NCBI GenBank assembly: GCA_003168375.1
Contig: PMSI01000003.1
Location: 930,001 to 994,000 of the forward strand
Origin: Vulcanimicrobiota bacterium
GTDB taxonomy: Bacteria > Vulcanimicrobiota > Vulcanimicrobiia > Vulcanimicrobiales > Vulcanimicrobiaceae
Length of the DNA stretch: 64,000 nt
Direction of reading: 5' to 3'
In this document: one piece after another, positions 3,620 through 23,056 of the stretch
Layout of the letters: every line of letters starts with the position of its first letter
Numbering within the stretch: the stretch's first letter is position 1
Program-made: the position numbers and the translations under genes
Notes under the pieces: model-generated
Told to the model about the DNA's origin: nothing
Database searches by the model: none
The model's input: only the letters and a program-made list of their open reading frames with translations

Positions 3620-4374
3620 GTGCGGTTGGAACGGATTTCGATCGAGCGCCTGGCCGACTTCGATGAGCTCGTTCCGGAATGGGACGCGCGCTGGCGGCGA
3701 AACTCGCCGGCGGCGGGATGAGCTCCCGCGAGTTCGCGCCCTCACCGTGCTGCGCGATCGACCTGCCTACCGACTGGACCGCGTTCCTCGCGACGCTGAG
3801 CAAACCGACGCGACGGGCAACGCTCCGGCCGTTCAAAGTGCTCGACGAGCAGCTTCCGGGCTGGCGGGCAAGCAGCGCCACCGCGGCCGACGTGACGTCG
3901 CACGTCGACGCGGCGCTCGACGTGAACGGCCTGCGCTGGGGCATGACCGCTGCGCGCCGTGCGAAATACCGGCGGCTGTTTCTGGCCGCGTTCGCGCGCG
4001 GTTGCGCGCGCATCGACGTGATCTGGGACGGTACGCGACCGATCGCCGCGGGCGTCTCGTTCCTCGATCTCGAGCGCGGCACGTGCGGCCTGTACCTGGT
4101 GGGCTACGATCCCGAGTACGCGCGCTTCAGTCCCGGGAAGGCGGTGCTCGCGACACTCGTTCGGGAGGCGATAGCGCTCGGCTGCCGCACCTTCGACTTC
4201 ATGGGCGGCGGTGAGTCGTACAAACAGTCGTACGCGACGCGGGAAAGCGCGAACGCGCACTACGCCCTGCGCCGGCGCGGCGCGCGCGCCGCGCTCCTGG
4301 CGGCGGTGCAACCCGGGTATGCGGCGATGCGCTACGCGCTCGTTCGCTTGACGACGCCGCGCCGCGCGGCATGA
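3620..4374 (+). pseudogene. BioF2/FemAB-like N-acyltransferase, internally deleted and out of frame
   Basis: From a GTG at 3620 the frame reads VRLERISIERLADFDELVPEWD and stops at a TGA at 3719-3721. This matches the start of the intact paralog downstream (LELIRIDDLAGFDALRGAWDD). In a different frame, an open stretch from ATG 3679 to 4374 (231 residues) matches the last 230 or so residues of that paralog, including CAIDLPTDW, LSKPTRR, FSPGKAVL and TFDFMGGGESYKQSYATRE. About 115 codons are therefore missing at roughly 3680, with a frame change. The C-terminal part might still be translated from ATG 3679, but the N-terminal half of the fold would be lacking. The last four bases overlap the paralog's start. 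Confidence 0.75.
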
Positions 4375-5480: not shown

Positions 5481-5488
5481 GCGGGCCG

Positions 5489-7284: not shown

Positions 7285-7332
7285 CTGCGTTCGCGCCGAT
7301 GACCGGCGCCACCCCGCGGCGAATACCCGACC

Positions 7333-8286
7333 ATGCCGCTAACGACGCTCGATGCACTGCTCCCGCTGCTGCGGTGCCCCGTGTGCGCGTCGCCGCTCGC
7401 TGAGAAGGGCCTGCGCTGCACGAATCCGCAGTGCAAACAGGCGAGCACGCCGTTTCACGTCGCCGGAGGCCAGCCCGTCCTGGTTGACGCGAGCGATTCG
7501 ATCCTGGATCCCGCCGCGGTCGTCCCCGCAGCGCCGCGCCAAGTGCGTGGACTGCGCGCGCTCGCGAGCGCCTTCGGGCCCAAGAACCGCGTCGCGCCGC
7601 GGATCGCGCAGCTGATCGCGGACGAGATGCGCCACGTCACCGGACGCCGTCCGATCGTGCTCGTCATCGGCGGCGGCACGGTGGGAAGCGGGCTCGAGAG
7701 CCTGTACGACGCGCCCGGCCACGACGTCGCAGCGTTCGACATCTTCCCCTCACCGAACACGCAGTTCGTTGCCGACGGACATCGCATTCCGCTCGCCGAC
7801 GCCTCGGTCGACGCCGTCGTCGTGCAGGCCGTGCTCGAGCACGTGCTCGACCCGTGGCGCGTCGCCGCCGAGATCCATCGCGTGCTGCGGCCGGGCGGCG
7901 TCGTCTACGCCGACACGCCGTTCCTGCAGCACGTGCACGAAGGCCCCCATGACTTCACGCGTTTCACCGAGAGCGGTCACCGCTGGCTGTTCCGGCACTT
8001 CACGCTGATCGAATCCGGCGTCGTCGCCGGCCCCGGCGAACAACTGGTGTGGTCGCTGAGCCAGGCGACGCGCACGATCGTTCCCGTGCGAGGCGCCGCA
8101 GCCGCCGTGCGGCTGGCGGTCCGGCCGTTCGCCGCGCTGATCGATCGGTTCGGTTCCCGCGCGCACGCCGTCGACGGCGCGTCGAGCGTCTACTTCTACG
8201 GCCGCCGGGCCGACGCACCGATCGCGCCGCGCGAGATGCTGGTTCACTACAGCGGCGCACAGCACCCGATCAGCCGGACGGTGTAG
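7333..8286 (+). CDS. methyltransferase with N-terminal zinc ribbon
   Basis: A 317-residue protein. Residues about 12-35 form a zinc ribbon (LRCPVCASPL...LRCTNPQC) of the Trm112p-like type found at the start of many SAM methyltransferases. A methyltransferase type 11 domain follows: VLVIGGGTVGSGLESLY as motif I, FDIFPSPNTQFVADGHRIP and DAVVVQAVLEHVLDPWRVAAE as the post-I and IV regions. The small substrate is unknown, with sugar or lipid modification likely from context. The next gene starts four bases after its stop, so they are co-transcribed. Confidence 0.85.
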   Translation: MPLTTLDALLPLLRCPVCASPLAEKGLRCTNPQCKQASTPFHVAGGQPVLVDASDSILDPAAVVPAAPRQVRGLRALASAFGPKNRVAPRIAQLIADEMRHVTGRRPIVLVIGGGTVGSGLESLYDAPGHDVAAFDIFPSPNTQFVADGHRIPLADASVDAVVVQAVLEHVLDPWRVAAEIHRVLRPGGVVYADTPFLQHVHEGPHDFTRFTESGHRWLFRHFTLIESGVVAGPGEQLVWSLSQATRTIVPVRGAAAAVRLAVRPFAALIDRFGSRAHAVDGASSVYFYGRRADAPIAPREMLVHYSGAQHPISRTV

Positions 8287-8290
8287 ACCT

Positions 8291-9556
8291 ATGGTCACGT
8301 CGCCCTCGAACGCGCGGCTCCGCATCGCCGCGGCAAGCGTTGCAATCGTCGTCCTCTACGGCGCCCAGGTGTGGGCGGCGAAGGCCTCGGGCAGCGACCC
8401 CCACGCCGTCCACGCGCTGGTCATGATCGTAACCGGGTTGCTGCAGAGCGCCGCGCTGCTGCAGCTGTACCGCGACGCCGGCCGGAGCTCCGCGCGGTCG
8501 ATCGTGCTCGCCGTTGTGCCCGCGGCGATCGCGCTGCTCGTCCTGTCGGCGCTTGCGCCGAATACGGACGACGACGCGGCAGCGTACGTCGCGTACGCGA
8601 AGCTGCCGGCGTTCGCGCAAGCCTACGCACCCTCGCCCGTCGCGATCTCGAGTCCCGGTTTCGAGCGCGTCGCAAGCACGTGGCCGCAGTTGCCGCCGCT
8701 CGTCTACGGGCCGCTCTGGCTCGCCGTCGACCGCGCCCTGGTCGGCTGGGCGCCGAGCTTTGCGGCGGCGCTCGGAATCCTGCGCGCGGTGAACGTCGTG
8801 CTGCTCGGCGCGCTGGTACTGGGCCTCCGGCGCGCGGGGTGTAATGCGGCGACGCTGGCCGTGACCGCGCTCAATCCGATGCTGTGGTTCTATTTCGTCG
8901 TCCAGGCCCACAACGATCTCGGACCGCTCGTGCTCGTCGTCGCCGGGACGGCGATCGCTCGGACGCGGCCGCTGCTCGGGGCGCTTGTGGCGGGTGCCGC
9001 GGCGCTGATCAAGATCGTCTTCGTCGCGATCGCGATCCTCGCATACGCCGGTCGCCGCGCGTGGCCGCAGACGTTGGCCTACGCCGCCGCCTCGCTCGCC
9101 GTCACGGCGGTCGTGTCGTGGGTCTTCGGCGGCGCGGCCTACCTGCACGCGATGACCGAGGTCGGCCACATGCAAATCGCGACGCGCGCAGACCTTCCGC
9201 ACCTATTCGCAGCGTCGCTGCACGCTGTGCTCGCCGCGATCGCGGCGGCGGCGATCGTGGCCGCCGTCGCCCGCAACGCCTTCGTGGCGCCGGCGGCCTA
9301 TAGCTTCAGCGCGATCAGCACGATCGTCTATCCGTGGTACCTGGGGTGGTGCATTCCGTATGCCGTCCGCATTCCGACGTTCACCGGCGTCTTCTTCGTC
9401 TCGCTCCCGGCGATCGCGCACCTGATCGACCCGCATTTCTCACTCTCGCCGGCGCGTTCGTTCGCGCTGCTGGTGCCGTACTACGCGGTCGTGATCGTGC
9501 TCGTAGCGCGAAGCATCGTGAACGCCCGGCGAACCCCGCTCAACGCACCAGAATAG
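8291..9556 (+). CDS. integral membrane GT-C-type glycosyltransferase
   Basis: A 421-residue polytopic protein with roughly ten to eleven hydrophobic helices. After the second or third helix a loop carries the acidic motif APNTDDDAAAYVAY, where GT-C enzymes such as the DUF2029/GT87 mannosyltransferases place the catalytic acid that acts on polyprenyl-phosphate donors. Later loops contain YGPLWL and NPMLWFYFVVQAHND, also typical of that family. It probably adds a sugar on the periplasmic side of the membrane. The 3' end overlaps the convergent secreted protein gene by 17 bases. Confidence 0.75.
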   Translation: MVTSPSNARLRIAAASVAIVVLYGAQVWAAKASGSDPHAVHALVMIVTGLLQSAALLQLYRDAGRSSARSIVLAVVPAAIALLVLSALAPNTDDDAAAYVAYAKLPAFAQAYAPSPVAISSPGFERVASTWPQLPPLVYGPLWLAVDRALVGWAPSFAAALGILRAVNVVLLGALVLGLRRAGCNAATLAVTALNPMLWFYFVVQAHNDLGPLVLVVAGTAIARTRPLLGALVAGAAALIKIVFVAIAILAYAGRRAWPQTLAYAAASLAVTAVVSWVFGGAAYLHAMTEVGHMQIATRADLPHLFAASLHAVLAAIAAAAIVAAVARNAFVAPAAYSFSAISTIVYPWYLGWCIPYAVRIPTFTGVFFVSLPAIAHLIDPHFSLSPARSFALLVPYYAVVIVLVARSIVNARRTPLNAPE

Positions 9557-10838
9557 CGGCCGTCTCCGGGCCGAGCGAATTCGGCGCGCCGCTCTCCACG
9601 CGCGCGCGGCCGCCGTGATAGAGGCTCTGAGGGTCGAGCGCCACGTGGTTCGCGTACGCCACCGCAAGCCGGGGGATCGAGGCTGCCGAACGGAACGATG
9701 CGTTTACGACGGCGGCGCACGGCCCGATCGACCGCGCCGCGATGGCGCACTCGCCGAACTCGCGCACGTAGACGCCGTCGCGGCGCAGATCGTCGATCGA
9801 CGACGGCGTCGCGCGTGGCGCCAGCGGCACGAGCTCGATCTCGGGATAGAGCGACTCGCCGTCGGACTGCTTGACCGCCATGAGGTAGACCGAGTAGCGG
9901 GGATCGTACGTCAGGAGCCAGGCGGCGTACGCATAGGTCCGGTGCGGCGGGGTCGTGTCGCCGGTGGGAAAGCAGACCGCGCTCTTGCCGTGCGACATCA
10001 CGTTCAACAGCGCGTTCTCCTCGCGGCGGAATTTGTCGTTGCGATCGGAGTACAGGTAGTTGCCGCTGTTGTTGAAGCAGCCTTCCTGCTGTTCGGACAT
10101 GACGAAGGGCAGGTCGAGGAACCGGCCGTCGTACGCGGGCCCCGTGCCGCGCGGATCGCCACCGTTGATCATCAGCGGCTTTCCCGCCGCCTTGAGCATC
10201 GCCGACTCGCCGGCGATCCACTGCTCGTCGCTGCGGATCTCGACGCCGAACGCGCTGAATGAATAGTACAGGTTCGAGCCCAGCTTGCCGTCGATGCCGG
10301 TGAAGGGACTCCCGGAATCGTCCGCTTCGAAGCCGTCGAGCAGCGGCGAATGGCGTAGGATCTCCGCGGTCGTCGCGGCGTACGCGCGCCACGCGACCGG
10401 CGACGTGACGTTGAAGATCTCCTGGTACTGAAAATAGGGATTGAAGTACTTCCGCACGCGCGCGCCCGTCGCGTCGTGGATGAACGCGCGTTCGTCGCTC
10501 GCGACCAGGTCCGCGATCGGGCCACCGCAGCGGCCGGACGGCGGCACGAACGGCGGCGGGCAGTGCGTCGCGTACGTCGGGTCCGTATACGCGATCGCCA
10601 TGCGCCCCCCGGCGCGCTTGAACCGGTCGGCGTGTTCGGCGGTGTAGCCGTCGTCTTCGACGATGTCGACGTGCGCCGCCATGTATGCTGCCGGGACGTC
10701 GGCGTTGAAGTCGTTGAGCCCGTAGTACGCCTGAACGCGAACGTGGGGCACGAGCCGCCACGCCGCCGGATCCGGACGCGGCGACGCCGCCGTGCCGAGG
10801 ACGACGGCGCCGAGCGCGAGGCACCGGCGAAGCTGCAT
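9540..10838 (-). CDS. secreted glycosidase-like protein (paralog 1 of 3)
   Basis: A 432-residue protein with an N-terminal signal peptide (LRRCLALGAVVLGTAA). The body is probably a TIM-barrel glycoside hydrolase-like domain. It opens with VQAYYGLNDFN and HVDIVEDDGYTAEHADRFKR, continues with the strongly acidic LLDGFEADDSGSPFTG, then LMINGGDPRGTGPAYDG, and ends in a beta-rich stretch closing with TAAILVR. The same order recurs in 14032-16023 and, more diverged, in 10885-13872. I cannot assign a CAZy family with certainty. Location in the EPS locus suggests trimming or editing of the exported glycan. Confidence 0.7.
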   Translation of the reverse strand: MQLRRCLALGAVVLGTAASPRPDPAAWRLVPHVRVQAYYGLNDFNADVPAAYMAAHVDIVEDDGYTAEHADRFKRAGGRMAIAYTDPTYATHCPPPFVPPSGRCGGPIADLVASDERAFIHDATGARVRKYFNPYFQYQEIFNVTSPVAWRAYAATTAEILRHSPLLDGFEADDSGSPFTGIDGKLGSNLYYSFSAFGVEIRSDEQWIAGESAMLKAAGKPLMINGGDPRGTGPAYDGRFLDLPFVMSEQQEGCFNNSGNYLYSDRNDKFRREENALLNVMSHGKSAVCFPTGDTTPPHRTYAYAAWLLTYDPRYSVYLMAVKQSDGESLYPEIELVPLAPRATPSSIDDLRRDGVYVREFGECAIAARSIGPCAAVVNASFRSAASIPRLAVAYANHVALDPQSLYHGGRARVESGAPNSLGPETAAILVR

Positions 10839-10884
10839 GTCGGAGTCCTTGTACCCGCGCCGGACTCCGGCCTGGCAGCCCGGC

Positions 10885-13872
10885 CTACTGTTTCAGGATC
10901 ACCGCCGTCATCGGTTGCAGCGTCGTGGGAAGCGTCGTGGTCCACGTCGCGCTGCCGCCGGCGTCGGCAGGCAGGTTGTCCAGCACCAAGGCGCTGGAGT
11001 AGCTATGCGCCAGCGTCGGTATCGTCACGACCCCGCCGCTCGTATAGTCGCTCGACTCCGGATTCAGCACGACCGCGCAACGGCCGATGCTCGAGCCGTT
11101 CTGATAGCACTGGGCGAACTCGCGCCGGAAGGCGCCGCCCGCCGGCGAGCCTCCTGCCGTGTGGCCATCGGCGATCTGCAGCGTCGTGATATCCGTGCCG
11201 GTCGCGGTCTGGTACGGCTGCGTCGGCACGATATTGTACTCGGCGACGAGACCGTCGAAGTTCCCGTCTCCGTCGGTCATGAACGGATCCCCGTTGCCGG
11301 GATCGATCTGGTTCCAGGCGAGCGTGTAGCGCGGATCGTAGATGAGCCAAAGGCCGCCGAGATTGTAGATTCGGTCTCCGACCGGGTCGAACGTGCAGCC
11401 GCTGCTCCCGTACGAGCAACCCGTGTAGTCGTCGATCAGCGCGAACTTCTGAAGGCTTTGCACCAGCAAGATGTTATCGGCGATCGGGATGAACGTGTAC
11501 TTCTCATTTTGTTGGTTCAGGTTCTTACGGCCGCTGAGCGTGACGAAGGCGCCTTCCACCTCGCCGCCGAGGACGCACGGTGATTGCAGCATTGCGGTAA
11601 CGGACGCCTTTTGTGCCGGACCGTTCGTCGAGTCGAGCGCATCCCACGACGGGCCGTTGAAGATCACCGGCTTCGACGCCTTGCACGCCATGGCGATCAT
11701 GTCGTTCCGGTATGTCGTCGCCCCGAGCGAATCGTACTCGGCCGACGTCGCGCCGAACGTGAAGAGGAAGTCGGTATAGAGCGGACTTCCGTCGTCCATC
11801 CAGGTGACGTCGAAGAAGCTATTCGCACTGGTCACGCCGGACGTGTACGTCGCGTAGGCGGATTGGGCGTGCGACGAGCCCATATACGGCGCTTCCTTGT
11901 AGAGGAACGTACTGCTGGTACTGCAGGTACCGCCGGACCAGCCGTGCAGTCGCGCTCCGGCCGGAGCGGCGTAGCACGCAGGCGCGCTGCTGGTCGTCGC
12001 CCCCGACGCGTGCTGCCAAGCGGAATCGTCCGAGCTCAGCGCCGTGCCGAGCGGCGTGCCGCAGGAGCCCGGCGTGTTCTGGCTCGTCGGTCCGAACGGC
12101 GAGTTGCAAGTGTAGATCAAGACGGGATCCGTGTACCACATCGCGTGGCTGCCGCCCGAGGCGCGGAAGCTTGCGGCGAGCGAGTAGTCCGTGCCCTGCG
12201 TGACGGCCCAGTCGACGTGGCGCAGCATGTACTGGAGCGACACGCCGCTGTTCTTCCCCGGCTCGTAGTACGCGGCGGTGAGGATGTGCGCCGGACCGCT
12301 CTGCGACGCCGTCCACGAACTCGTGCCGTAGTGGGAAGAGATGTGGCCGGCGGAGAGCGCGTGATCGTAGATCGCGACCTCATCGAGCGTCCCGTTGAAC
12401 ACGCTGCGCGTCGTCGACTGCGTCGCACCCAGCGCCAAGCCATATGTGCTGATCCCGGAGTAGCTGACGTTGCCCGTCGCGCTCGTCGTCACGTTCTGCG
12501 AGCCGTTGACGTAGATCCTGGCGGTGGTTCCGTCGAACGTCGCGACGACGTGGTAGATCGTGCCCGCGGAGAGCGTCGTAGAGCCCGTCAGACTGACCGA
12601 GGATGGAGTTCCGGTCGAACTCATAGCGAAGACGAACGCGTTCGAGGCCGAGATCTGGAGCGAGTACGCCTGCCCCGTCTGAGGACCGTACGAGACCAAG
12701 TCGACGGTGCCTCCGCTGTTCACCGCCGTCTCCTTGACCCAGGCCTCGATCGAAAGCGCGGTGGGCTGCAGCAGGGTGTTCTGCGGCACCGTCGCGATCG
12801 AGTTCGCACTCCAGCTGCCGCCCGGGAACGTCGCGGCTGTATCCGCGCTGTTGGAGAGTAAGCCGGTTGCCCGCTTCGTTATCCCGCTGCCGTACGAGCC
12901 GTTGATGCGGTTGTTGGTCGCGTCGTACATCTTCGCGCCGGCGTCGTCCAGACGGTAGTACGCGGACGGATTGTCGGTCATGACCTGCAGCGCGTACGGA
13001 TCGTCGGGGAAACTCATCGCGGCAGCGTAGTGGCTCGCCGCCTGCGTCGAGGTCAGCGCTGCGTTGAAGATCGAGACATCGTCGATCGTTCCGTTGAAGA
13101 GGACGCGCGACGTGCTCTGGCTTTCGCCGATCGACAGGCCATACGACCCGATCCCCGCGTACGAAATCGCCGAGCCGCCGGTGAACGATCCGTCGAGCAC
13201 GCCGTTGACGTAGAGGTTCGCGTTCGAGCCGTCGTACGTCGCAACCACGTGATACGCGGCTCCCGGCGTCAGCACCGTCGAGCCGACCGCCTGGGCTGTC
13301 CCCGCGCCGCCCGAGGTCTTGAGCCACACCTCGAGCGTGTTCGACGAGGTGAGCTGGAGCGTATACCCTTGACCGCCGCTTTGGGACCCGTACGAAACCA
13401 GGTCGACGGTGCCGCCGCTGTTGACCACGTTCTCCGAGACCCATGCCTCGATCGACACGCTCGTCGGCTGCAGCGTGCTGCTTTGCGCCACGGTCGCGAT
13501 GCCGTTCGCACTCCACGCACCACCTGGGAACGCCGCCGCGGGATCGATCGTGTTCGGAACCAGCGACGTCGCGCCGCGCGTCACCGCAGAGCCGTAGGTG
13601 CCGTTCAATCCGTTGGGGCCGGAATCAACCATCGTCGAACCCGTGTCGTCGAGACGGTAGAACGCGACAGGGTGATCCAGAATGACCGCGTTCGGGTATG
13701 CCGCCTCATTGATCGTACGCGGCCTGCGGTGAGCGCCGACAGGACCGCCAGCGCCTTGCGAACCCGCCGTCGGCGGCAGTGCGCGCATCGAGTGACCACG
13801 GCCACACGCCGTCAGCTCAAGCGCAAGCGCAAGCACCAGTACCGCTCCAGAGAGCGTACGCGCAAATCGCAT
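10885..13872 (-). CDS. lipoprotein with two LamG-type domains and a glycosidase-like domain (paralog 2 of 3)
   Basis: The preferred start is the ATG at 13872, which gives MRFARTLSGAVLVLALALEL followed by a lipobox-like TAC and about 995 residues. An upstream ATG at 13917 would bury the signal peptide. Two concanavalin-like LamG/jelly-roll domains follow, each recognisable by YRLDD near its start, SIEAWV in the core and the pair YHVVATYDGSNANLYVNG / YHVVATFDGTTARIYVNG. The remaining 450 residues (from AHILTAAYYEPGKN) resemble the two neighbouring paralogs, with FDVTWMDDG, WLIYDPRYT and TAVILKQ at the end. It is probably a surface-anchored carbohydrate-binding and cleaving protein. Confidence 0.75.
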   Translation of the reverse strand: MRFARTLSGAVLVLALALELTACGRGHSMRALPPTAGSQGAGGPVGAHRRPRTINEAAYPNAVILDHPVAFYRLDDTGSTMVDSGPNGLNGTYGSAVTRGATSLVPNTIDPAAAFPGGAWSANGIATVAQSSTLQPTSVSIEAWVSENVVNSGGTVDLVSYGSQSGGQGYTLQLTSSNTLEVWLKTSGGAGTAQAVGSTVLTPGAAYHVVATYDGSNANLYVNGVLDGSFTGGSAISYAGIGSYGLSIGESQSTSRVLFNGTIDDVSIFNAALTSTQAASHYAAAMSFPDDPYALQVMTDNPSAYYRLDDAGAKMYDATNNRINGSYGSGITKRATGLLSNSADTAATFPGGSWSANSIATVPQNTLLQPTALSIEAWVKETAVNSGGTVDLVSYGPQTGQAYSLQISASNAFVFAMSSTGTPSSVSLTGSTTLSAGTIYHVVATFDGTTARIYVNGSQNVTTSATGNVSYSGISTYGLALGATQSTTRSVFNGTLDEVAIYDHALSAGHISSHYGTSSWTASQSGPAHILTAAYYEPGKNSGVSLQYMLRHVDWAVTQGTDYSLAASFRASGGSHAMWYTDPVLIYTCNSPFGPTSQNTPGSCGTPLGTALSSDDSAWQHASGATTSSAPACYAAPAGARLHGWSGGTCSTSSTFLYKEAPYMGSSHAQSAYATYTSGVTSANSFFDVTWMDDGSPLYTDFLFTFGATSAEYDSLGATTYRNDMIAMACKASKPVIFNGPSWDALDSTNGPAQKASVTAMLQSPCVLGGEVEGAFVTLSGRKNLNQQNEKYTFIPIADNILLVQSLQKFALIDDYTGCSYGSSGCTFDPVGDRIYNLGGLWLIYDPRYTLAWNQIDPGNGDPFMTDGDGNFDGLVAEYNIVPTQPYQTATGTDITTLQIADGHTAGGSPAGGAFRREFAQCYQNGSSIGRCAVVLNPESSDYTSGGVVTIPTLAHSYSSALVLDNLPADAGGSATWTTTLPTTLQPMTAVILKQ

Positions 13873-14031
13873 CTCGAACACCCCGCTCGACGTAGAAGAT
13901 TGCGCGACTATTAGCACTCGTGAGAGCAGCCTACACCACGCGGTTTCACCATACGCCGCTCCGGCGCCGTAGTCAAGCGTTTCGCAATACCATCGCTGCG
14001 CACGCGATCGCGTGACGCGCGGCCGGCGAAA

Positions 14032-16023
14032 CTAGCGAACTAGGATTACCGCCGTCTCCGGGCCGAGCGAGGTTACCGGTCCGCCGACGACGTTCGCCTT
14101 GCCGCCGTGATAGATGCTCTGCGGGTCGAGGACGACGTGCTGGCCGTAGGCGATCGAGAGCGCCGGCAGCGCGGCCGACGCGGTGGCCGACGAGTTGACG
14201 ACCGCGGCGCACGGGCCGATTGGTTGCGCCGCCACGGCGCACGCGCCGAACTCGCGCACGTAGACGCCGCCGCGCCGCAGCTGCCCGATATCGGTTGCGG
14301 TGACGCCGGGCTGCCCTGGCACGAGCTGCGTCTCGGGCCAGAGCGCGATCCCGTCGGAGAGCGGTACGTCCGTCTCGTACGCGGAGTACGTCGGGTCGTA
14401 CGTCAGCAGCCATGCCGCGTACGCATAGAGACGATGCGCCGGGGAGCCGTCACCCGTCGGATAGACGACGGCGAGCTTGTGATGTGACATGACGCTGATC
14501 AGCGCGTTCTCTTCGAGCTGGAACTTGTTGTTGACGTCGCTGTACAGGTAGCCGCCGCCGTTGTTGAACGATCCTTCGAATTGCTGGCCGTAGACGGACG
14601 GCAGGTCGAGAAACGTCCCGCCGTAAGCAGGCCCCGTGCCGCGCGGGTCGCCGCCGTTGATCATCACCTGCTTGCCGGCCGCGGCGAGCATCGCGCTCTC
14701 ACCGGCGATGTACTGCGCGTCGCCCGCGATCTCGACGCCGAAGGCGTTGAAGCCGTAATAGAGGTTCGAGCCCAGAACGTTGTCCGGACCGGTGAACGGG
14801 CTGCCGGAGTCGTCGGCCTCGAAGCCGTCGAGCAGCGGCGATGCCGCTAGGATCGACGCCGTCCAGCGCGCGTACGCCGCGCGCGCCGAAGGTGCGGCGA
14901 CGTTGAAGATCTCTTGGTACTGGAAATAGGCGCCCCCATAGCGGTTCACCCGAGCCCCGTTCACGTCGTGGATGTACGCAGACTCGTCGCCCGCGATCGG
15001 GCCCGTCATCGGTCCGCTGCAGCGCCCGGCGGGCGGCACGAACGGCGCGGGGCAGTGCACGTCGAACGACGGGTCGGTGTAAGCGATCGCCATCTTTCCG
15101 CCGGCGCGTTTGAACGCGTCGGCGTGCACGGCCGTGTAGCCGTCGTCCTCGACGATGTCGACGTGCGCCGCCATGAACGCGGCCGGTACGTCGACGTTGA
15201 TGTTGTTGAGCCCGTAGTACGCGTGCGTGCGCACGTGGTCCGGGAAACTGCCCGCCGCAGATGCCGCCGCGATCGTGAGCGTCGCCGCGGGTGCGGCGAT
15301 CGAGGTCCCGGTCACCGTCGCGACGACGTGCACGGCCGAGACCGCTGCGGAACCGTTGTACGCGATCGTCGCGCTATCGTTCGGCGACGCCAGCACCGTC
15401 GTCGAAAGCACTGTCGCGCCGGAATGGTCGTCGCTGCTGAGCACGAGCGCGCTCGCGTACGGCTCGGGACCGACGATGGTGAAGCCGGCGGCGTCGATCG
15501 CCTTCACGACAACCGGGATCTGCGCGGCCGCGCCGGCGGTCGCGGTGGCGGCGCCGAGCGTGATCGCAAGCTTCGCCGGGACACCGCCGAACGCGATCGA
15601 GACGACGTTCTGCTGGCCCGCGACGACGTTCGTCGTCGTCGCTCCGGTCGCAAGCAGATTGCCGGCGGCGTTCGGCTGGTCGAAGAGCCGCGCCGAGATC
15701 GACTGCTGACCCGTCGACAGCTGAAGCGTGATGCTGCACATCGTCGTGCAGTTCACGGTCTGCTGCTGCGCGCCGTACACGATCGTCGCCGATTTCGTTC
15801 CGGCCGACACGTACCGCACGCGGCGCGCCGCGCTGCTGCTGCTGCTCGCACTTGGGATCGCGATCGTGAGCACCAGCGACGCGGGCGCAGTGCCCGCAGT
15901 CGTTCCGCCGCTCGGCGCGACCGGCGGCATCGCCGACGAGCCGCCGCCGCCACCACAGCCGGCCGCGAACGTCGCGGCGAGGCAAAGCGAAAATACGCTG
16001 GCGTAACGACGAGTCGCGCCCAT
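14032..16023 (-). CDS. lipoprotein with Ig-like N-terminus and glycosidase-like domain (paralog 3 of 3)
   Basis: The ATG at 16023 gives MGATRRYASVFSLCLAATFA, then a Gly-rich lipobox region (GCGGGGGSS). The upstream ATG at 16056 is less likely. Residues about 50-270 are beta-rich and Thr/Ala-rich, with repeats of the type NLLATGATTTNVVAGQQNVV, which resemble Ig-like or stalk modules of extracellular lipoproteins. The C-terminal 400 residues match 9540-10838 closely, including DIVEDDGYTAVHADAFKRAG, LLDGFEADDSGSPFTG and MINGGDPRGTGPAY. It was probably produced by duplication with a new N-terminal module. Function is inferred to be surface glycan processing. Confidence 0.75.
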   Translation of the reverse strand: MGATRRYASVFSLCLAATFAAGCGGGGGSSAMPPVAPSGGTTAGTAPASLVLTIAIPSASSSSSAARRVRYVSAGTKSATIVYGAQQQTVNCTTMCSITLQLSTGQQSISARLFDQPNAAGNLLATGATTTNVVAGQQNVVSIAFGGVPAKLAITLGAATATAGAAAQIPVVVKAIDAAGFTIVGPEPYASALVLSSDDHSGATVLSTTVLASPNDSATIAYNGSAAVSAVHVVATVTGTSIAAPAATLTIAAASAAGSFPDHVRTHAYYGLNNINVDVPAAFMAAHVDIVEDDGYTAVHADAFKRAGGKMAIAYTDPSFDVHCPAPFVPPAGRCSGPMTGPIAGDESAYIHDVNGARVNRYGGAYFQYQEIFNVAAPSARAAYARWTASILAASPLLDGFEADDSGSPFTGPDNVLGSNLYYGFNAFGVEIAGDAQYIAGESAMLAAAGKQVMINGGDPRGTGPAYGGTFLDLPSVYGQQFEGSFNNGGGYLYSDVNNKFQLEENALISVMSHHKLAVVYPTGDGSPAHRLYAYAAWLLTYDPTYSAYETDVPLSDGIALWPETQLVPGQPGVTATDIGQLRRGGVYVREFGACAVAAQPIGPCAAVVNSSATASAALPALSIAYGQHVVLDPQSIYHGGKANVVGGPVTSLGPETAVILVR

Positions 16024-16050
16024 CAAGGACCCCCGAGCAAGCGGTGCTGC

Positions 16051-16075
16051 CACCATCCCTCGACGAGCTCAGGAC
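16051..16075. repeat. degenerate dispersed repeat (CCTTCGACAAGCTCAGG type)
   Basis: The sequence CATCCCTCGACGAGCTCAGG matches the dispersed repeat family with a few changes. It lies between the starts of paralog 3 (16023) and the stop of the gene at 16111. Confidence 0.5.
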
Positions 16076-16110: not shown

Positions 16111-17658
16111 CTATCGGTGGTCCGGAGCCGGTGCTTGAGGCGTCGATGCGCGATGTGACGCGGAACGGCGCAGCCCGCGCGCGATGCGGTCGCGCAGCGC
16201 ACGGACGGCGCGCCCCACGTTGCGGAGATCGCGATACGTGCGCTTGCCGTCGACGACGAGCGTGTCGCCTGCGAAGCTGATCGTGTGGAAGCCGTCGGCG
16301 AAGCGGCCGGGCGGCGGTTCGAGCCGCCGGACGACGGTCTCGCGATAGCCGGTCGGGCTCAGCGCATCGACACGCGCGACGACCACCGCGCCGCCGTACG
16401 TGCGCGAACAATCTTGACCGGTTCGATACAAAACACCGTCGACGACGAACGGCGGACCGGCCGGTCGCGCGCACGCGACGTCGACGACGATGGGGTTGAG
16501 CGGATGCGCCGTCCACGGCCCGCGCGGCGCGGGCGCATGAAACGCGTGCAGCGCGAGGTTCGCGCCCGTCGCCGTGCGCGTGGCGAACGCCCACCAGCGG
16601 CCCTCGTGCGCGAACAGCGTCGTGTCGACGCCGTCGAAGCCCGGCAGCAGCGCGCTCTCGCGCTCCCACCGGTCCGGAAACGCGACGCAGCGATACAGCG
16701 CGACCTCGTTCGCAGCGCAGCTCTCCGGCATCAGGTAGAGCTCGCCGTCGATCTCGACCGGGAAGGGGTAGCTGAGATGCACGGCGGTCTCGAGCGCGCG
16801 CGTGCGCCGCACGACGCGATCGGCGCCGTCGAGCACGAGGGCGTCGATCACGCCGCGGTTGCGCACGTAGTTGAAGTCCTCGAGGAACAGCACACGCTGT
16901 CCGTCGCGCTCGACTACGAACGGATCCGCGACGAACGTGCGGTGCGGCGGATCGTCGAGCCAGCGCACGTCGAGCACCGATCCGTCGAGCAGTGCGCGCG
17001 GGCCGCCCGGCGCGAAGCCGACGTTCCACTGATCGACCGTGAAAAACGCATCGCGCATCCCGCTCGCGAAGCGCGCGCCGAGTGCGGTGAGCAAGGCCAC
17101 GCGATGCGGCGGACGCGCACGCGCCGCTGGAGCGCTCGCCGGGACGGCGGGCACGTCGATCCCGTCGCGCAGCGCGGCGACGAACGTCGCCGCCCAGCGC
17201 GCCGCTTCGCCGAGCGCGAGGCGCAGCAGCGTCGGATACCACATCGGGATGCCGAACCGCCCGCTGCGCAAAATCTCGGTAACGGCGCCGCGTCGCCGCT
17301 CGAGCACGATCGTGACGGTGGCGTCGCCGCGCACGATCTCGGTTGCGAACGGCAGCGCAGCGCCGGAGTCTTCGCCGAGACGGAACGACCAGACGCCCTG
17401 CGGGGGATCGGCGGCGAAGGCGTGCGCGGTGAAGTTGAGGATCGCGTCACAGCCGGCGAGATCGCTGCGGTCGACGTCGACCGGCGCGGTCGCGAGAGCC
17501 GGCCCGGCGAGCCGCGCGTCGAATCCGCGCGGCGGCGTCGCGGCACCCGGAACGTCGACGATGCGCACCTCGACCGCGTCCAGCGCGCGAAGCGCGTCGA
17601 TCGCGCGGCGCTGCCAGTCCGGGACCAGCCTCGCCGTCACCGCGACGGCGATCTTCAC
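16111..17658 (-). CDS. glucosamine-inositolphosphorylceramide-transferase-like protein
   Basis: The start is a GTG at 17658, whose GTGA overlaps the stop of the upstream ligase gene; the open frame continues upstream only as antisense-like noise. The 515-residue product has an N-terminal formyltransferase-like Rossmann region (VKIAVAVTARLVPDWQRRAI). It is followed by a five-bladed propeller-like domain with FVADPFVVERDGQRVLFLED, HLSYPFPVEIDGELYLMPES and WWAFATRT. Bacterial proteins with this arrangement are annotated as glucosamine inositolphosphorylceramide transferase family. They sit in polysaccharide loci and are presumed sugar or glycan transferases. The exact reaction is not known. Confidence 0.75.
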   Translation of the reverse strand: MKIAVAVTARLVPDWQRRAIDALRALDAVEVRIVDVPGAATPPRGFDARLAGPALATAPVDVDRSDLAGCDAILNFTAHAFAADPPQGVWSFRLGEDSGAALPFATEIVRGDATVTIVLERRRGAVTEILRSGRFGIPMWYPTLLRLALGEAARWAATFVAALRDGIDVPAVPASAPAARARPPHRVALLTALGARFASGMRDAFFTVDQWNVGFAPGGPRALLDGSVLDVRWLDDPPHRTFVADPFVVERDGQRVLFLEDFNYVRNRGVIDALVLDGADRVVRRTRALETAVHLSYPFPVEIDGELYLMPESCAANEVALYRCVAFPDRWERESALLPGFDGVDTTLFAHEGRWWAFATRTATGANLALHAFHAPAPRGPWTAHPLNPIVVDVACARPAGPPFVVDGVLYRTGQDCSRTYGGAVVVARVDALSPTGYRETVVRRLEPPPGRFADGFHTISFAGDTLVVDGKRTYRDLRNVGRAVRALRDRIARGLRRSASHRASTPQAPAPDHR

Positions 17659-19082
17659 GCGCCGATCGCTCTGTGTGCCGGCCGCGGAACATACGGTTCG
17701 GGTCGGGCGGCCGGGACGGCAGCCGGCGCGCGCATGCGCACCGCGGTGCGCAGCTGGGCGATGGTCACGAGGACGAGCCACACGTACTTGTACGACTCGA
17801 GATCGATGAAGAACCCGACGAACACGAGCGCGCACAGCGCCGCGGTGAGCGCGACGCGGATGTCCCAGAGACGGTCCAGCCGGGGGACGACGCGCAGCAT
17901 CAGAAACGCGGCGACGAACGCGGCGACGTAGAAGCCGAGACCGATGAAACCGAGCTCGACCGCGACGTGCAACGGCGTGTTGTGCGGGGTGATGACCCAG
18001 CCGCTCGGGTGCGCCTGATAGACGCGCAGGAAGTTCGAGTCCAGCGCGTCGATCGCGCCGGCTGTTCCCCAGCCGAAGAACGGCTTTTGCTGAATCGACG
18101 TCCAGGCGACGTGCCAGAGGGACGCGCGCCCTGCGCCCCCGGTGACGAAGGCCTCGGCCATGCGCTGGCCGATCGCGGGAACCAGCAGCGGGACGGTGAT
18201 GAGGACGGGTAGCGCGATGAGCGCGCCGACGATGCGATGGCGCGACAAGGCGATGACGACCGCGACCACGATCACGCTGCCCAGCAGCGCCTCGCGCGAC
18301 AGGCTGATCAGCACGCCGCCGAGGAGGATCGCGAGCGCGACCAGCGCCCCGAAGATCACCGCCGGCCGCCGCGAGGACGTGAGGGTGACGAACGCGAGCG
18401 CGATCGGCGCGAGCAGTGAGTTCGCAAAGTGGTTCGGATCGATCGTGCGATCGCCGATCGTGATCATGAGCCGGCCGAAGTCGCCGGTCATCTGCGGCGA
18501 GGTATGGATCACATACATACCGTACACACTCGCCGCGACGCCGCCGAGCACGATGAACATGCAGATGGTGCGCAAATCGTGCTCGTCGACCGGCGCGACC
18601 GACAGCACGGCGTAGAGCAGCACCAGTGACGCGAGCGTCTGCGTGAGGAGTGACGCTGCGGGAACGTCCGGGCTCCACATGATGCCCATCAACGTCCAGA
18701 GCAGAAAACCGATCCAGATCCAGAGCGCGCGCGGCGGCGCCGACGAGCGCCGCATGACGAACGCGTGCGCCCCGATCGCAACGACCGCGAGGATGCCGAG
18801 CAGCTTCGTCAGGGTGCCGCTTCCGCCGATTTTCAGCATGTTGTCGAACGGCACGAGCATGACGTAGAGCCCGTACGGAAAGATGTACGGCCAGCGCAGC
18901 GCGACCCAAATCAGCACCGGCGACGCCAAGAATCCGGCGAGCAGCAGCGCTAGGCGCAGGTCGCCGAGGCCGATCTGCACGGCGATCCCCGCCACGACGG
19001 CCGCGAGAACGACGGACCCCAGCAGCAGCTGGGTCCGCCGGCTGCTCAGATCAGGATGCGGTAACGAAATGGAGGGGATCAC
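17655..19082 (-). CDS. O-antigen ligase / polymerase family membrane protein
   Basis: A 475-residue protein with about eleven to twelve hydrophobic helices and one large periplasmic loop between residues about 310 and 370. That loop contains FFGWGTAGAIDALDSNFL and HNTPLHVAVELGFIGL, the H-N-x(5-7)-E-x-G signature of the Wzy_C/WaaL superfamily. It would polymerise or ligate lipid-linked glycan on the periplasmic side. The start overlaps the preceding dehydrogenase's 3' end by 32 bases and the end overlaps the next gene by four, so it is one operon. Polymerase and ligase cannot be separated by sequence alone. Confidence 0.85.
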   Translation of the reverse strand: MIPSISLPHPDLSSRRTQLLLGSVVLAAVVAGIAVQIGLGDLRLALLLAGFLASPVLIWVALRWPYIFPYGLYVMLVPFDNMLKIGGSGTLTKLLGILAVVAIGAHAFVMRRSSAPPRALWIWIGFLLWTLMGIMWSPDVPAASLLTQTLASLVLLYAVLSVAPVDEHDLRTICMFIVLGGVAASVYGMYVIHTSPQMTGDFGRLMITIGDRTIDPNHFANSLLAPIALAFVTLTSSRRPAVIFGALVALAILLGGVLISLSREALLGSVIVVAVVIALSRHRIVGALIALPVLITVPLLVPAIGQRMAEAFVTGGAGRASLWHVAWTSIQQKPFFGWGTAGAIDALDSNFLRVYQAHPSGWVITPHNTPLHVAVELGFIGLGFYVAAFVAAFLMLRVVPRLDRLWDIRVALTAALCALVFVGFFIDLESYKYVWLVLVTIAQLRTAVRMRAPAAVPAARPEPYVPRPAHRAIGA

Positions 19083-20334
19083 GGCGCTTTCCGCCGAGCG
19101 TGTAGACGTCGTACCCGGCCGCCGCCCAGCGCGCCGCCGGGAGGAAGGCGCGCGTATCGATCAGCAGCCGGCGCCGCAGCAGCGGCGCGATCGCGACCGG
19201 ATCGATCGCCGCGAACGCGTCGTGCCCGACCATCAGCACCAGCGCGTCAGCGCCGCGCACGGCGTCCTCGAGCGACGCCGCGAGCTCGCCGCGATAGCGT
19301 TCCGCGACCGGATCGTAGACGCGTGTCAGGTACCCGCGCTCGCGCAGCAGCTCCTCGACGCGCTCGGTCGGCGACTCGCGCGTGTCGTCGACGTTGGCCT
19401 TGTACGCGGCGCCGAGGATCGCGACGATCGCGCCGTCGCGCGCCGCGACGTGCTCGACGATGCGGCGCACCACGACATGCGGCATGCGCTCGTTGATGCG
19501 CCGCGCCGTCTGGATCAGCTCGGTGACGAACGGGTTCGCGTTGGAGAGGAAGTGCGGATCCACGGGGATGCAGTGGCCGCCGACGCCGGGCCCGGGCGAA
19601 AGGATGTTCACGCGCGGGTGCTGGTTCGCCAGCGCGATCGCTTCGTGTGCGTCGACGCCGAGCTCTTCGCTGAGCAGCGCGAGCTCGTTCGCGAAGGCGA
19701 TGTTGATGTCGCGATACGTGTTCTCGATGACTTTCACCAGCTCGGCAGTCATCGTGTCGGTCGTGTTGATCGCGCCGCTAGTGAAGCTGGCGTAGAGCGC
19801 GCGCGCCTGCTCCGCGTCGCCGGGCTTGCGTCCGCCGACGACGCGCGCGTTCTCGCGCAGCTCCTTGACGATCGCGCCGGGGATCACGCGCTCGGGGCAG
19901 TGCGCGATCGCGACGGAGTCGGGGTCGACGCCCGCCGCGCGCAAGGCCGGGACGACGACACGATCCATCGTGCCGGGCGGCACGGTAGACTCGACGATCA
20001 GCAGGTCGCCCGGATTCAGCACCGCCGCGACGGCGGCCGAGGCGGACTGCACGAACGAGAGGTCGGGCTTGTGGTCGATCGTCGGGGTCGGCACGCACAG
20101 GACGTAGGCCTGCGAGCCGGCCGGAATCTCCGACGACAGCGTGAGCTTCTTGCTGCGGAGCGCCTTGACCACGAGGGCGCGGACCGGTTTCTCCTTGACG
20201 TGCGCGGCGCCGTCCGCGAGCGCACGGAGCACCCGCGGATCAACGTCGTATCCGACGACGTCATGCCCGGCGAGCGCCATCATCGCGGCGGTCGGCAGCC
20301 CGATGTAGCCCAGACCAACAACACAAACGTTCAT
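19051..20334 (-). CDS. wecC: nucleotide-sugar dehydrogenase (UDP-ManNAc dehydrogenase-like)
   Basis: The ATG at 20334 is chosen because ATGA overlaps the preceding stop; an in-frame upstream ATG would add four residues. The 427-residue product has the NAD-binding GLGYIGLPTAAMMALAGHDV, the GPGVGGHCIPVDPHFL stretch with the catalytic cysteine, and the C-terminal UDP-binding domain with ILGAAYKANVDDTRESP. The IGLPTA form of the first motif points to the WecC type, which oxidises UDP-N-acetylmannosamine to its uronate. It supplies an acidic sugar for the glycan built by this operon. Substrate specificity is inferred. Confidence 0.88.
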   Translation of the reverse strand: MNVCVVGLGYIGLPTAAMMALAGHDVVGYDVDPRVLRALADGAAHVKEKPVRALVVKALRSKKLTLSSEIPAGSQAYVLCVPTPTIDHKPDLSFVQSASAAVAAVLNPGDLLIVESTVPPGTMDRVVVPALRAAGVDPDSVAIAHCPERVIPGAIVKELRENARVVGGRKPGDAEQARALYASFTSGAINTTDTMTAELVKVIENTYRDINIAFANELALLSEELGVDAHEAIALANQHPRVNILSPGPGVGGHCIPVDPHFLSNANPFVTELIQTARRINERMPHVVVRRIVEHVAARDGAIVAILGAAYKANVDDTRESPTERVEELLRERGYLTRVYDPVAERYRGELAASLEDAVRGADALVLMVGHDAFAAIDPVAIAPLLRRRLLIDTRAFLPAARWAAAGYDVYTLGGKRRDPLHFVTAS

Positions 20335-21623
20335 CCCTGACCCCATGCCGCGTCGCCGCCCTCCGTGGTGCGTGCGTCTTCGTTGCTAGACCTACCCGAA
20401 GCTCGGTCGAGCGTAACGGAAGCGGGGGTCGCGATCAGCCGCGCCAGCTCGCGGGCCACCGTCACCACGTCGAACTCCGCGCGCACACGCGCATGCGCCG
20501 CATCCGCCAGCCCCGCCCGCAACGCGGGGTCGGCGGCGAGCTCGCGCAGCGCGCCGGCGATCGCCGCGATGTCGCCCTGCGGCACGACGCGACCGCAGCC
20601 GTCGTCGACCAATTCGGTGATGCTGCCGGTCGCAGTCGTGAGCACCGGGAGCCCGAGTGCCATCGCCTCCATCAACGCGACCGGGATGCCTTCCATCACG
20701 CCGCCCGCCAGCTCGAGGCTGGTCAGCGCCATGGCGTCGTAGCGGCCGGCCCGGATCTCGTCGAGCAACGCGTCGTGTCCCACATAACCACGGAACGTCA
20801 CGGCATCGCCCAGCTGCAGCTCGCGCACCAGCGCCTCGAGATTGTCGCGCAGATCCCCGTCACCGGCCAGCGTCAGACGCACGTCGGTGCCCCCAGAGCG
20901 CACCGCCGCGACCGCTCGCAGCAGGTCGGCATGGCCTTTTTTTCGGACGAGATTTGCCGCGCACAGGAGCGCGAACGGCGTGCCGGCGTGCCGCGTTGGC
21001 GCGGCGGGCGCCGTCTCGGGCACGTCGACGCCGACGTGCAGCACGCTGATGCGGGCGGGGGCGATGTCGGGGACGGCGGCGAGCAGGTCGAGCCGGCCGC
21101 GCGCGGAGATCGCCCGCACGAATCGCGCCGAGCGGAGCTTGAGCGCCAGCGCATTCTCCTCGTAGATGTCCCACAGGTGCGCGGTGCTGCTCCACGGGAT
21201 CCCCGCGACCGCCGCCGCGACGAACGCGACCGTCGCCGGCGTCGAAAGCCAATAGGAGTGGACGTGATCGAAGCGGCCGCGCCGCAGCGCGGTGCCGACC
21301 GCGAGGCCGAGCGGGATCACGGCGAGGTTCTTGAGCTTCACCCCCGGCCGTCCGCGCGCGAACGCGACCGACGCGATCGCGCGGGCGCTCGCCGCCGGCC
21401 GCGTCGCGAGGGCGGTGAGCGCGCCGGCGAGCGTCGCGATCGAGATCAACCCGAGCCGGTGCACGTCGGCCGGGATGTCGCGGTAGCCCGGCGTGCGCTC
21501 GCGCGGCGAGGTCGGGAACACCGCGACGCCGCCGGTGTGCGGCGCGAACGCGCGAAGTTCGCGGTCGAGGTACGCTTCCTGGGGGCCGTACGGATACTTC
21601 GCCGCGACGATGGCGACGCGCAT
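20331..21623 (-). CDS. GT4-family glycosyltransferase
   Basis: A 430-residue GT4 enzyme. N-terminal MRVAIVAAKYPYGPQEAYLD and the donor half with LLCAANLVRKKGHADLLRAV and GVMEGIPVALMEAMALGLPV show a complete GT-B fold with the E-x7-E pair. The C-terminus has an unusual Ser/Thr-rich extension (TLDRASGRSSNEDARTTEGG). It lies eight bases after the sugar transferase and overlaps the dehydrogenase by four bases. It probably adds the second or third sugar of the repeat unit. Confidence 0.88.
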   Translation of the reverse strand: MRVAIVAAKYPYGPQEAYLDRELRAFAPHTGGVAVFPTSPRERTPGYRDIPADVHRLGLISIATLAGALTALATRPAASARAIASVAFARGRPGVKLKNLAVIPLGLAVGTALRRGRFDHVHSYWLSTPATVAFVAAAVAGIPWSSTAHLWDIYEENALALKLRSARFVRAISARGRLDLLAAVPDIAPARISVLHVGVDVPETAPAAPTRHAGTPFALLCAANLVRKKGHADLLRAVAAVRSGGTDVRLTLAGDGDLRDNLEALVRELQLGDAVTFRGYVGHDALLDEIRAGRYDAMALTSLELAGGVMEGIPVALMEAMALGLPVLTTATGSITELVDDGCGRVVPQGDIAAIAGALRELAADPALRAGLADAAHARVRAEFDVVTVARELARLIATPASVTLDRASGRSSNEDARTTEGGDAAWGQG

Positions 21624-21631
21624 GCCTCGGT

Positions 21632-23056
21632 CTATGCGGCCCGGTGGAAGAGGACCTCGGCGGCGGTCTTGAGGCAGACGGCGACGTCCATGAACAAGGA
21701 CCAGTTCTCGACGTAGAAGAGATCGCCGCGCAGCTTGGCGGGGACGTCGTCGAAGCCGACGACGCGTTTCCCGTAGACCTGAGCCCAGCCGGTGATCCCC
21801 GGCGAGACCAGGTGGCGTTCGGCGTAGCGGGGGTACTGCTGGACGAACTGGTCGACGAAGACCGGCCGCTCGGGACGCGGGCCGACGATCGACATCTCAC
21901 CGCGCAGGACGTTGATCAGTTGCGGCAGCTCGTCGAGCGAGGTGCGGCGGATGAACTTGCCGACCCGGGTGACGCGAACGTCGCCGACGATAGCCAGCTT
22001 GGCGCCGTCTTTTTCAGCGTCCATCCCCATCGAGCGGAACTTCAGCATGTTGAAGGTCTTGCCGTCGCGGCCGACCCGCTCCTGACGGAACATCACCGGC
22101 TCGCCGTCTTCAAGCGAGATCGCGACGGCGACCAGCAGCATGATCGGGGCGGCCAGCAAGAGGCCGATCGAGGCGATCGTGAGGTCGAAGAGGCGCTTCC
22201 CCATCCGCGCGCCGGGCTGCGTGGCACGCAACGGCCTGGCGACGATCAGGGCCTGCTTACCGATCGAGTCCATCTCGAGGGCGTAGGAGTGCACGCGGAT
22301 CCGCGGCGGGGCGAAGGCGATCATCATGCCGTGGCGCTCGGCGGCGGCCAGCACCTGCGGCATCATCGAGGGGGCCAGGATCTCGGTGAAGACCAGCGTG
22401 TCGCAGCCCCATTGCGCGGCTTGGTTGAACCAGGGCTGCGCCTCGACCGCCTCGGCGGTCAGCGTGCCGAGCCCGTCGATGTCCGGGACCGCCAGGCGGA
22501 AGACGCGGCCGTTCGGCAACGCCCGCATCGCGTCTTCGGCGAAATCGAGCCGCGACGGGTGGCCGACGACGGCGATCCGGCGCGGGTGGAGCATCGTCAG
22601 GGCGTCGCGGACGCGGTGGGCGAGCGCGCGGGCCGAGCCGACCAGCACGATCGCGAACAGCAGGGTGAAGATCGTGACGACCCGCGAGGTCGAGATCTGC
22701 GGGAAGATCGAGAAAAAGATCATGACCGGCGCCGAGGCAAGCGCGAGCGCGGCGACGGCGTGGTAGAGCTCGTCCCGGACCGACATCGCGAACGAGCGCT
22801 GATAGAGCCCGAGCTGCCAGAACACCAGGACCGAGAGCACCGCGGTGAGGATCGCCGGCACGAAGATCTGCCGCATCAGGACTTCCGGCATCCAGAAATG
22901 GCGGACGAACAGTCCGGCCAAGTAGGTGGCGGTCAGGAACAGGACGGCGTCGGAAGCGACCAGCGCGGTCACCCAAGCGGCCGAAAACGAATGCACCCCC
23001 GGCTTGGCATCAGCGTGGGGGAGAGCGGCGATTTCCTGTTCCAGAGCGACGGCCAT
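21632..23056 (-). CDS. undecaprenyl-phosphate sugar phosphotransferase (WbaP/WcaJ type)
   Basis: A 474-residue initiating transferase. Residues about 28-145 hold four to five hydrophobic helices, a CoA-binding-like Rossmann domain follows (IAVVGHPSRLDFAEDAMRAL), and the C-terminal 190 residues form the bacterial sugar transferase domain. That domain shows KRLFDLTIASIGLLLAAPIM, FRQERVGRDGKTFNMLKFRS, RRTSLDELPQLINVLRGEMS and VGPRPERP. It moves a sugar-1-phosphate from UDP-sugar to undecaprenyl phosphate and begins each repeat unit. This is the first gene of the five-gene minus-strand operon down to 16111. Confidence 0.92.
   Translation of the reverse strand: MAVALEQEIAALPHADAKPGVHSFSAAWVTALVASDAVLFLTATYLAGLFVRHFWMPEVLMRQIFVPAILTAVLSVLVFWQLGLYQRSFAMSVRDELYHAVAALALASAPVMIFFSIFPQISTSRVVTIFTLLFAIVLVGSARALAHRVRDALTMLHPRRIAVVGHPSRLDFAEDAMRALPNGRVFRLAVPDIDGLGTLTAEAVEAQPWFNQAAQWGCDTLVFTEILAPSMMPQVLAAAERHGMMIAFAPPRIRVHSYALEMDSIGKQALIVARPLRATQPGARMGKRLFDLTIASIGLLLAAPIMLLVAVAISLEDGEPVMFRQERVGRDGKTFNMLKFRSMGMDAEKDGAKLAIVGDVRVTRVGKFIRRTSLDELPQLINVLRGEMSIVGPRPERPVFVDQFVQQYPRYAERHLVSPGITGWAQVYGKRVVGFDDVPAKLRGDLFYVENWSLFMDVAVCLKTAAEVLFHRAA

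Follow-up and report, generated by a model that had tools for sequence, protein, structure and literature searches.

A divergent GHL15/GH168-type module recurs beside Wzy polymerase genes in Vulcanimicrobiota and is a candidate hydrolase of the cell's own polysaccharide

What might three adjacent genes for exported proteins do at the end of a bacterial exopolysaccharide (EPS) operon? The question is raised by a 64,000-nucleotide stretch of DNA from a Vulcanimicrobiota bacterium (contig PMSI01000003.1, positions 930,001 to 994,000), here called the window, in which three tandem minus-strand genes, copies 1 to 3, encode a common C-terminal module of about 400 residues preceded by differing export modules. 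We read the module as an exported retaining glycoside hydrolase that works on the cell's own Wzy-made polysaccharide, and give this reading a probability of about 0.6. The fold is already known and the family is a divergent one; what is new is its repeated setting beside the Wzy polymerase. For a phylum studied mainly through metagenomes, this assigns a large family so far without annotation to a structural family and gives it a putative catalytic pair; it also shows a fold familiar from the breakdown of marine fucans in repeated linkage to the Wzy polymerase that makes the cell's own polysaccharide.

The initial annotation of the window, made from the sequence alone, had described three tandem paralogous, exported and glycosidase-like proteins with a shared C-terminal module, and the open reading frames and their identities bear this out: over the module, copy 1 is 67% identical to copy 3 and 34% identical to copy 2. 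Because a search of the source genome with copy 1 scores copy 3 at 614 bits and copy 2 at 53 bits, the likeness among the three is, on sequence grounds, far beyond chance; no copy besides these three came up in that search. The paralogues are not equal duplicates, however, since copies 1 and 3 are sisters in a quick tree and copy 2 is an older paralogue. The acidic motif GFEADDSGSPFTG and the motif NGGDPRGTGPAY, which had been noted as retained in the two closest copies, are present in copies 1 and 3 and absent from copy 2. The genes are closely spaced, with 46 bases between copies 1 and 2 and, depending on the start codon, 114-159 bases between copies 2 and 3; copy 3 is the first of the three to be read and starts 54-87 bases past the stop of the preceding gene, again depending on the start codon. 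The region had been ended at the in-frame ATG of copy 3, short of the full open frame (both in Table 1).

The fold of the module points to a known family. An AlphaFold2 model of copy 1, built with 26 aligned family rows, has a mean predicted local distance difference test score (pLDDT) of 89.3 and a predicted template modelling score of 0.89, and its alternating strands and helices form the TIM barrel that had been proposed as a check: a confident (beta/alpha)8 barrel followed by a C-terminal beta domain, as in GHL15/GH168, where the barrel is followed by a short C-terminal beta region. When Foldseek's 1000 best chains are re-ranked with VIA-align, rows 1-14 are all GH168-type chains (Z 23.3-20.8, 288-307 residues, 3.2-3.8 A), 13 of them titled family 168, endo-1,3-fucanase or PbFucA and the remaining one being 9f9v. 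The next row falls to Z 15.8, and the group that follows includes alpha-galactosaminidase, GH36, GH191 and, later, PelA, GH114 and Cwp19. Foldseek's template modelling scores also favour GH168 (0.56-0.59 versus 0.40-0.49 for GH31 and GH66 enzymes), and in a viral structure library only generic barrels were matched. Cwp19 had been considered as a precedent for GHL15 and was dropped, as it is assigned to GHL10 (PMC5765458).

Sequence intermediates lead to the same family. A profile of three canonical GHL15 proteins from the same phylum matches GH168-type entries of the PDB, ten different sequences with E no worse than 8.3e-28, among them 9nhf (2.6e-60), which its depositors named GHL15, 8rg3 (3.7e-59), 9jom (6.2e-52), 9f9v (8e-47) and 8ya6 (2.4e-37); because of these matches, GHL15 and GH168, as judged from their profiles, overlap as one family. 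A GHL15 search of 60 genomes turned up six relatives of the window copies within the module family that, in protein scans, pass the curated GHL15 cut-off of 27 bits (27.6-34.4 bits), and the module profile matches the three-GHL15 profile with E 9.7e-5. Since the window copies lie below that cut-off while six of their relatives pass it, we place the window module beside GHL15/GH168 as a divergent sister family and not within GHL15, an assignment based on the fold and the intermediates. It replaces the earlier suggestion that the catalytic family was not evident and might be a new glycoside hydrolase, and it answers the proposed comparison with CAZy by naming GH168, albeit as a relation that the window proteins do not show by direct sequence matching.

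Several results weigh against this assignment. When Foldseek matches are ranked by E-value, 9f9v is at the top (1.5e-12), but GH31 and GH66 enzymes come ahead of the other GH168 chains, 9nhf standing only at rank 23. None of the window proteins directly matches GHL15 or any solved GH168 in sequence: Pfam gives no GHL15 match (PF14885) up to E 1 for the three; a phmmer search of PDB sequences with copy 1 finds no GH168 chain up to E 10, nor does a 23-member profile, which has 0 matches there; and similarity to the solved, characterised enzymes falls short of significance. NCBIfam likewise gave no match to the module of the window copies, and 0 of 26 family members were matched. Only two of the 23 members scanned first reach GHL15 at E 1 or better, one of them (21.8 bits) below the cut-off. 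The profile-to-profile probability is only 58, which supports the relation and is no proof alone. The link to GHL15/GH168 rests on intermediates and fold.

The module has so far been seen only in Eremiobacterota, the Vulcanimicrobiota of current NCBI taxonomy, where 53 of 149 genomes have it (138 matches), often in clusters and with up to nine copies per genome. All 53 belong to three families (f1, f2 and f3) of one class, and none of the 19 genomes examined from other classes of the phylum carries it; the 96 genomes of the phylum that lack it count against the preferred reading. A pattern scan of GTDB genomes yielded 24 loci, 19 of them titled Eremiobacterota, Eremiobacteria or Eremiobacter; the patterns were derived from the 11 closest rows, and absence outside the phylum is therefore shown for close relatives only. 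A phage or plasmid origin was rejected, weakly, since no relative was confirmed in plasmids, nor was any of the 14 pattern stretches from viral contigs, in searches that reached close relatives only.

The N-terminal parts vary across the family as they do in the window. Among 121 distinct copies, a crude rule applied to stop-to-stop frames finds a lipobox-like Cys in 72, while in 32 the module begins at least 200 residues after the upstream stop and 12 have a Pro/Thr-rich linker. In the window, the modules first described hold in outline: copy 1 has a signal-peptide-like start only and copy 2 has two LamG domains (Laminin_G_3, PF13385, E 1.4e-48 in Pfam). A lipobox in copy 2 had been overlooked; by eye, copies 2 and 3 (residues 38 and 34), not copy 1, carry a lipobox-like Cys, so that copy 2 is probably a lipoprotein too. 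The lipoprotein stalk proposed for copy 3 agrees with its Cys34 and with the predicted all-beta structure of the N-terminal part, of which residues about 51-110 of the folded construct have pLDDT 74-86 and the rest mostly 33-65. This part has no match in Pfam, and the description Ig-like is no more than plausible. Elsewhere in the window, a minus-strand gene (55925-58045) encodes an all-beta lipoprotein N-terminal domain of the copy 3 type (36% identity) ahead of a virginiamycin-B-lyase-type domain (PF24684, 3.5e-62), and the domain has five further matches in the source genome, a reusable stalk outside Pfam.

Would the module be an enzyme? In MeGH168, Asp167 is the predicted nucleophile and Glu237 the acid/base (PMC12210190), and the GH168 enzyme FunA is reported to be inactive as D206E and as E264Q (PMC7401878). 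The profile alignment (probability 58) places the two MeGH168 residues on model Asp152 and Glu231, whose equivalents in the three copies are given in Table 1; the catalytic columns were read by hand, with a hand-counted offset of three between the numbering of the MeGH168 paper and that of the chain. Residues were counted in 86 fetched regions plus the window, covering 52 of the 53 genomes, with one known copy (G007:C368) missed. Of 131 matching open frames, the count excluded nine that span fewer than 250 model columns; the 122 that remain include one edge duplicate and thus 121 distinct copies, from 51 genomes. Model position 152 is Asp in 121 of the 122 sequences, while at position 231 Glu stands in 112 and Asp in the other 10. 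The initial annotation had proposed the Asp or Glu of FEADDSG as catalytic; the first D of its DD (Asp173 in copy 1) is the putative nucleophile, the Glu is not part of the pair. We also considered NGGDPRGTGPAY as the second catalytic motif and rejected it, as the acid/base aligns instead with the Glu of EGC(F/Y) on the sixth barrel strand; the NG of NGGDPRGTGPAY is conserved (N in 117 and G in 91 of 122).

The single copy without the nucleophile Asp (G072:C101) and the ten members with Asp at the acid/base position speak against a catalytic role. A protein that merely binds EPS or has a structural role at the surface would accommodate the variable, binding-type N-termini and the expansion in copy number, but we regard it as very improbable, given that Asp at one column (121/122) and Glu or Asp at the other (122/122) are among the most conserved of those checked across deeply divergent copies. 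The module is most likely catalytic, and homology would suggest a retaining mechanism.

The substrate is suggested by the genes around it. Family matches of the neighbours confirm the EPS locus recognised by the initial annotation, and the three module genes form the end of a minus-strand Wzy-type polysaccharide run, so they are encoded within a Wzy-dependent EPS cluster, as would be expected of a function like that of the hydrolase WceF. On the plus strand, the convergent GT87-like gene is preceded, at 1267-8286, by genes for a GT4 glycosyltransferase, two acetyltransferases, another GT4 enzyme and a methyltransferase. The source genome also encodes one Omp85 protein and two OPX-type matches, one of them an exporter gene some 2.2 kb to the left of the window, a combination that fits a Wzy-type locus in a two-membrane cell. 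A promoter and terminator scan returned 2 and 4 sites, versus 1.2 and 5.3 in shuffles, nothing notable.

This setting recurs. We tested 34 of the 53 module genomes, chosen by us and mostly carrying strong or multiple copies; 108 of their 109 matches were used, a 24-column fragment in G071 being left out, and these form 66 loci. Thirty of the 66 have a Wzy_C gene no more than 6 kb away, versus 1.15 expected if modules were uniform along the genome, and in 28 of the 30 the Wzy gene is upstream on the same strand. At least one coupled locus occurs in 27 of the 34 genomes. Where the contig extends at least 6 kb on both sides, 22 of 38 loci are coupled, and in f1 and f2 18 of 23. At nine coupled loci, selected by us, the 61 neighbouring proteins include, among the best 25 of 49 families, Glyco_trans_1_4 (15), Wzy_C (9), DegT (5), Bac_transf (4), UDPG dehydrogenase (3) and GINT1_N (3). 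In a quick tree of 121 modules, which has long branches, coupled copies stand in both large parts, and the coupled label (within 13 kb) changes 24 times versus 33.4 in shuffles, with 20 rows lacking Wzy data.

The coupling is nonetheless far from general: 36 of the 66 loci lie more than 6 kb from any Wzy gene, some of them on short contigs; well-flanked f3 loci are coupled in only 4 of 15 cases; and ten uncoupled loci, likewise selected by us (61 proteins), show no EPS family among the best 25 of 77. Part of the family therefore acts otherwise or in trans, and the uncoupled f3 copies suggest that it has further uses. One such use would be a secreted depolymerase for foreign polysaccharides, serving nutrition or competition in the manner of marine GH168. 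LamG domains can bind foreign glycans, most f3 copies lie apart from any Wzy gene, and the GH168 enzymes described as characterised degrade external fucans. Still, many copies are tied to biosynthesis operons with Wzy, an initiating transferase and glycosyltransferases, and at the nine coupled loci no sulfatase or glycan-utilisation family is among the best 25 of 49, in which one ABC_tran appears; as a general account of the family we consider it unlikely.

A further link is a shared open frame, accepted in only three cases: two genomes of one genus in which Wzy_C and the module are joined (G016:C23 and G050:C10) and a third genome in which the partner is a GT2 glycosyltransferase (G031:C57; Table 1). 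The Wzy_C/module junction holds a hydrophobic stretch followed by V-R-A-D, by eye a possible signal-peptidase site. All three frames have start-like codons between the two parts, and separate translation is therefore possible. Long upstream frames in G044:C44, G055:C122 and G122:C5 were rejected as fusions, since by eye they look like out-of-frame extensions. The shared frame makes the coupling directly testable.

Such a frame, with a Pfam family named for O-antigen ligase, would also suit a transglycosidase. Such an enzyme would cleave the nascent polymer and transfer the glycosyl unit bound to it either to an acceptor at the surface or to a second chain, and the EPS would thereby be anchored or cross-linked. 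The GH168-like dyad is compatible with this, as FunA is reported to transglycosylate to glycerol, methanol and L-fucose (PMC7401878), and lipid anchors and LamG domains would keep the enzyme at the surface. Sequence does not separate a transglycosidase from a hydrolase, however, and as far as the accounts go the characterised GH168 enzymes are hydrolases, FunA having transferred to none of six other sugars (PMC7401878); we judge transglycosylation to be an improbable main activity. A more speculative version, which we would entertain only as a long shot of similar weight, sees in this expanded envelope enzyme family of one phylum a class of retaining transglycosidases coupled to the polymerase. 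They would act together with Wzy, in one genus within a single polypeptide, and determine where and how a new chain ends, is anchored or is joined, in place of or besides Wzz-type control of chain length; the signal-like hydrophobic stretch at the fused junction would then serve either as an extra pass through the membrane or as a site of cleavage.

The preferred reading remains a hydrolase of the cell's own polymer. The export routes, the own EPS as substrate and a role in chain length or remodelling are what we consider most likely: the repeat-unit polymer would leave the neighbouring Wzy polymerase and be cut inside the chain (endo) in the envelope by the exported module enzymes, and cutting would set the chain length or release or remodel the polymer. 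One catalyst would thus serve three sites, with copy 1 soluble after export, copy 3 held on a lipid-anchored all-beta stalk and copy 2, which would have a lipid anchor too, carrying two LamG domains of carbohydrate-binding type. If the module does act on the cell's own polymer, it would represent a route of chain-length or release control besides Wzz-type regulators.

Table 1. Positions of the module genes, their putative catalytic codons, neighbouring genes and same-frame cases (window coordinates unless another locus is named)
Feature	Positions	Strand	Remarks
Copy 1	9540..10838	-	432 aa; signal-peptide-like start and barrel module
Copy 1, putative nucleophile Asp173	10320-10322	-	model Asp152
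Copy 1, putative acid/base Glu252	10083-10085	-	model Glu231
Copy 2	10885..13917	-	1010 aa from GTG; in-frame ATG at 13872; lipobox-like Cys38, two Laminin_G_3 domains, divergent barrel module
Copy 2, putative catalytic Asp708	11794-11796	-	model Asp152
Copy 2, putative catalytic Glu788	11554-11556	-	model Glu231
Copy 3	14032..16056	-	674 aa, or from ATG at 16023 (residue 12); lipobox-like Cys34, all-beta N-terminal region, barrel module
Copy 3, putative catalytic Asp415	14812-14814	-	model Asp152
Copy 3, putative catalytic Glu494	14575-14577	-	model Glu231
GINT1_N-like glycosyltransferase	16111..17658	-	PF24793, 8.7e-36; domain 16330-16938; just upstream of copy 3; start GTG 17658 chosen by us inside a longer open frame, overlapping the Wzy_C stop by four bases
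Wzy_C polymerase / O-antigen ligase family	17655..19082	-	PF04932, 3e-18
UDP-glucose/GDP-mannose dehydrogenase	19051..20346	-	family match
Glycosyltransferase, Glycos_transf_1 / GT4 type	20331..21623	-	family match
Bacterial sugar transferase, initiating type	21632..23056	-	PF02397
GT87-like protein	8291..9556	+	below cut-off; convergent with the module genes
Wzy_C and module in one open frame	L039 6910-9630	+	907 aa; one of two genomes of one genus
Wzy_C and module in one open frame	G016:C23:53186-55906	-	907 aa; one of two genomes of one genus
GT2 glycosyltransferase and module in one open frame	L071 137-2443	-	769 aa; third genome

Two further features of the surroundings are recorded. GINT1_N, a domain named for glucosamine inositolphosphorylceramide transferase, recurs beside the module, in three of the 61 neighbouring proteins of the nine coupled loci, and the window carries a minus-strand tyrosinase-type gene (31959-33395; PF00264, 3.4e-34).

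The link to Wzy may be older than the divergent module, because a canonical GHL15 gene in another genome of the family (L057 1186-3539, plus strand; PF14885, 89 bits), the one of the three whose neighbours were examined, is also directly followed by a Wzy_C gene. In literature with little coverage of subscription journals we found, among the matches listed, no paper that links GHL15 to Wzy or describes Wzy fused to a glycoside hydrolase domain, and titles and abstract openings on Eremiobacterota polysaccharide or exopolysaccharide gave none on these genes among the matches listed.

Among known systems, GHL15/GH168 (FunA/Fun168A, MeGH168 and PbFucA) is the closest in structure, sharing with the module a barrel of about 300 residues, the aligned catalytic Asp and Glu and, towards the C-terminus, the conserved motifs PE and R-x-F/Y. 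In contrast to three GHL15 rows, which lack it, the module has a Cys pair in the C-terminal domain (343 and 353) in 122 of 122 sequences, and its linkage is to EPS biosynthesis genes and not to fucan utilisation. The PelA hydrolase domain, the GH114 and GH191 galactosaminidases and Cwp19 are, like the module, barrel glycosidases, some of them in polysaccharide synthesis machines; PelA is part of a synthase-dependent system. Their VIA-align Z-scores (PelA 14.6, GH191 15.7, GH114 14.3, Cwp19 14.3) are clearly below those of GH168. The precedent for the role, though not for the fold, is WceF, the stewartan hydrolase of Pantoea stewartii, an exported hydrolase that, like the module proteins, is encoded in a Wzy-dependent EPS cluster and whose mutation is reported to lengthen the polymer (PMC7949094). 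WceF is a trimeric beta-helix, and the predicted barrel of the module differs from the right-handed parallel beta-helix trimer of the WceF family; the account of WceF, as far as it is available, describes no polymerase fusion (PMC7949094), whereas the module shares an open frame with Wzy_C in one genus.

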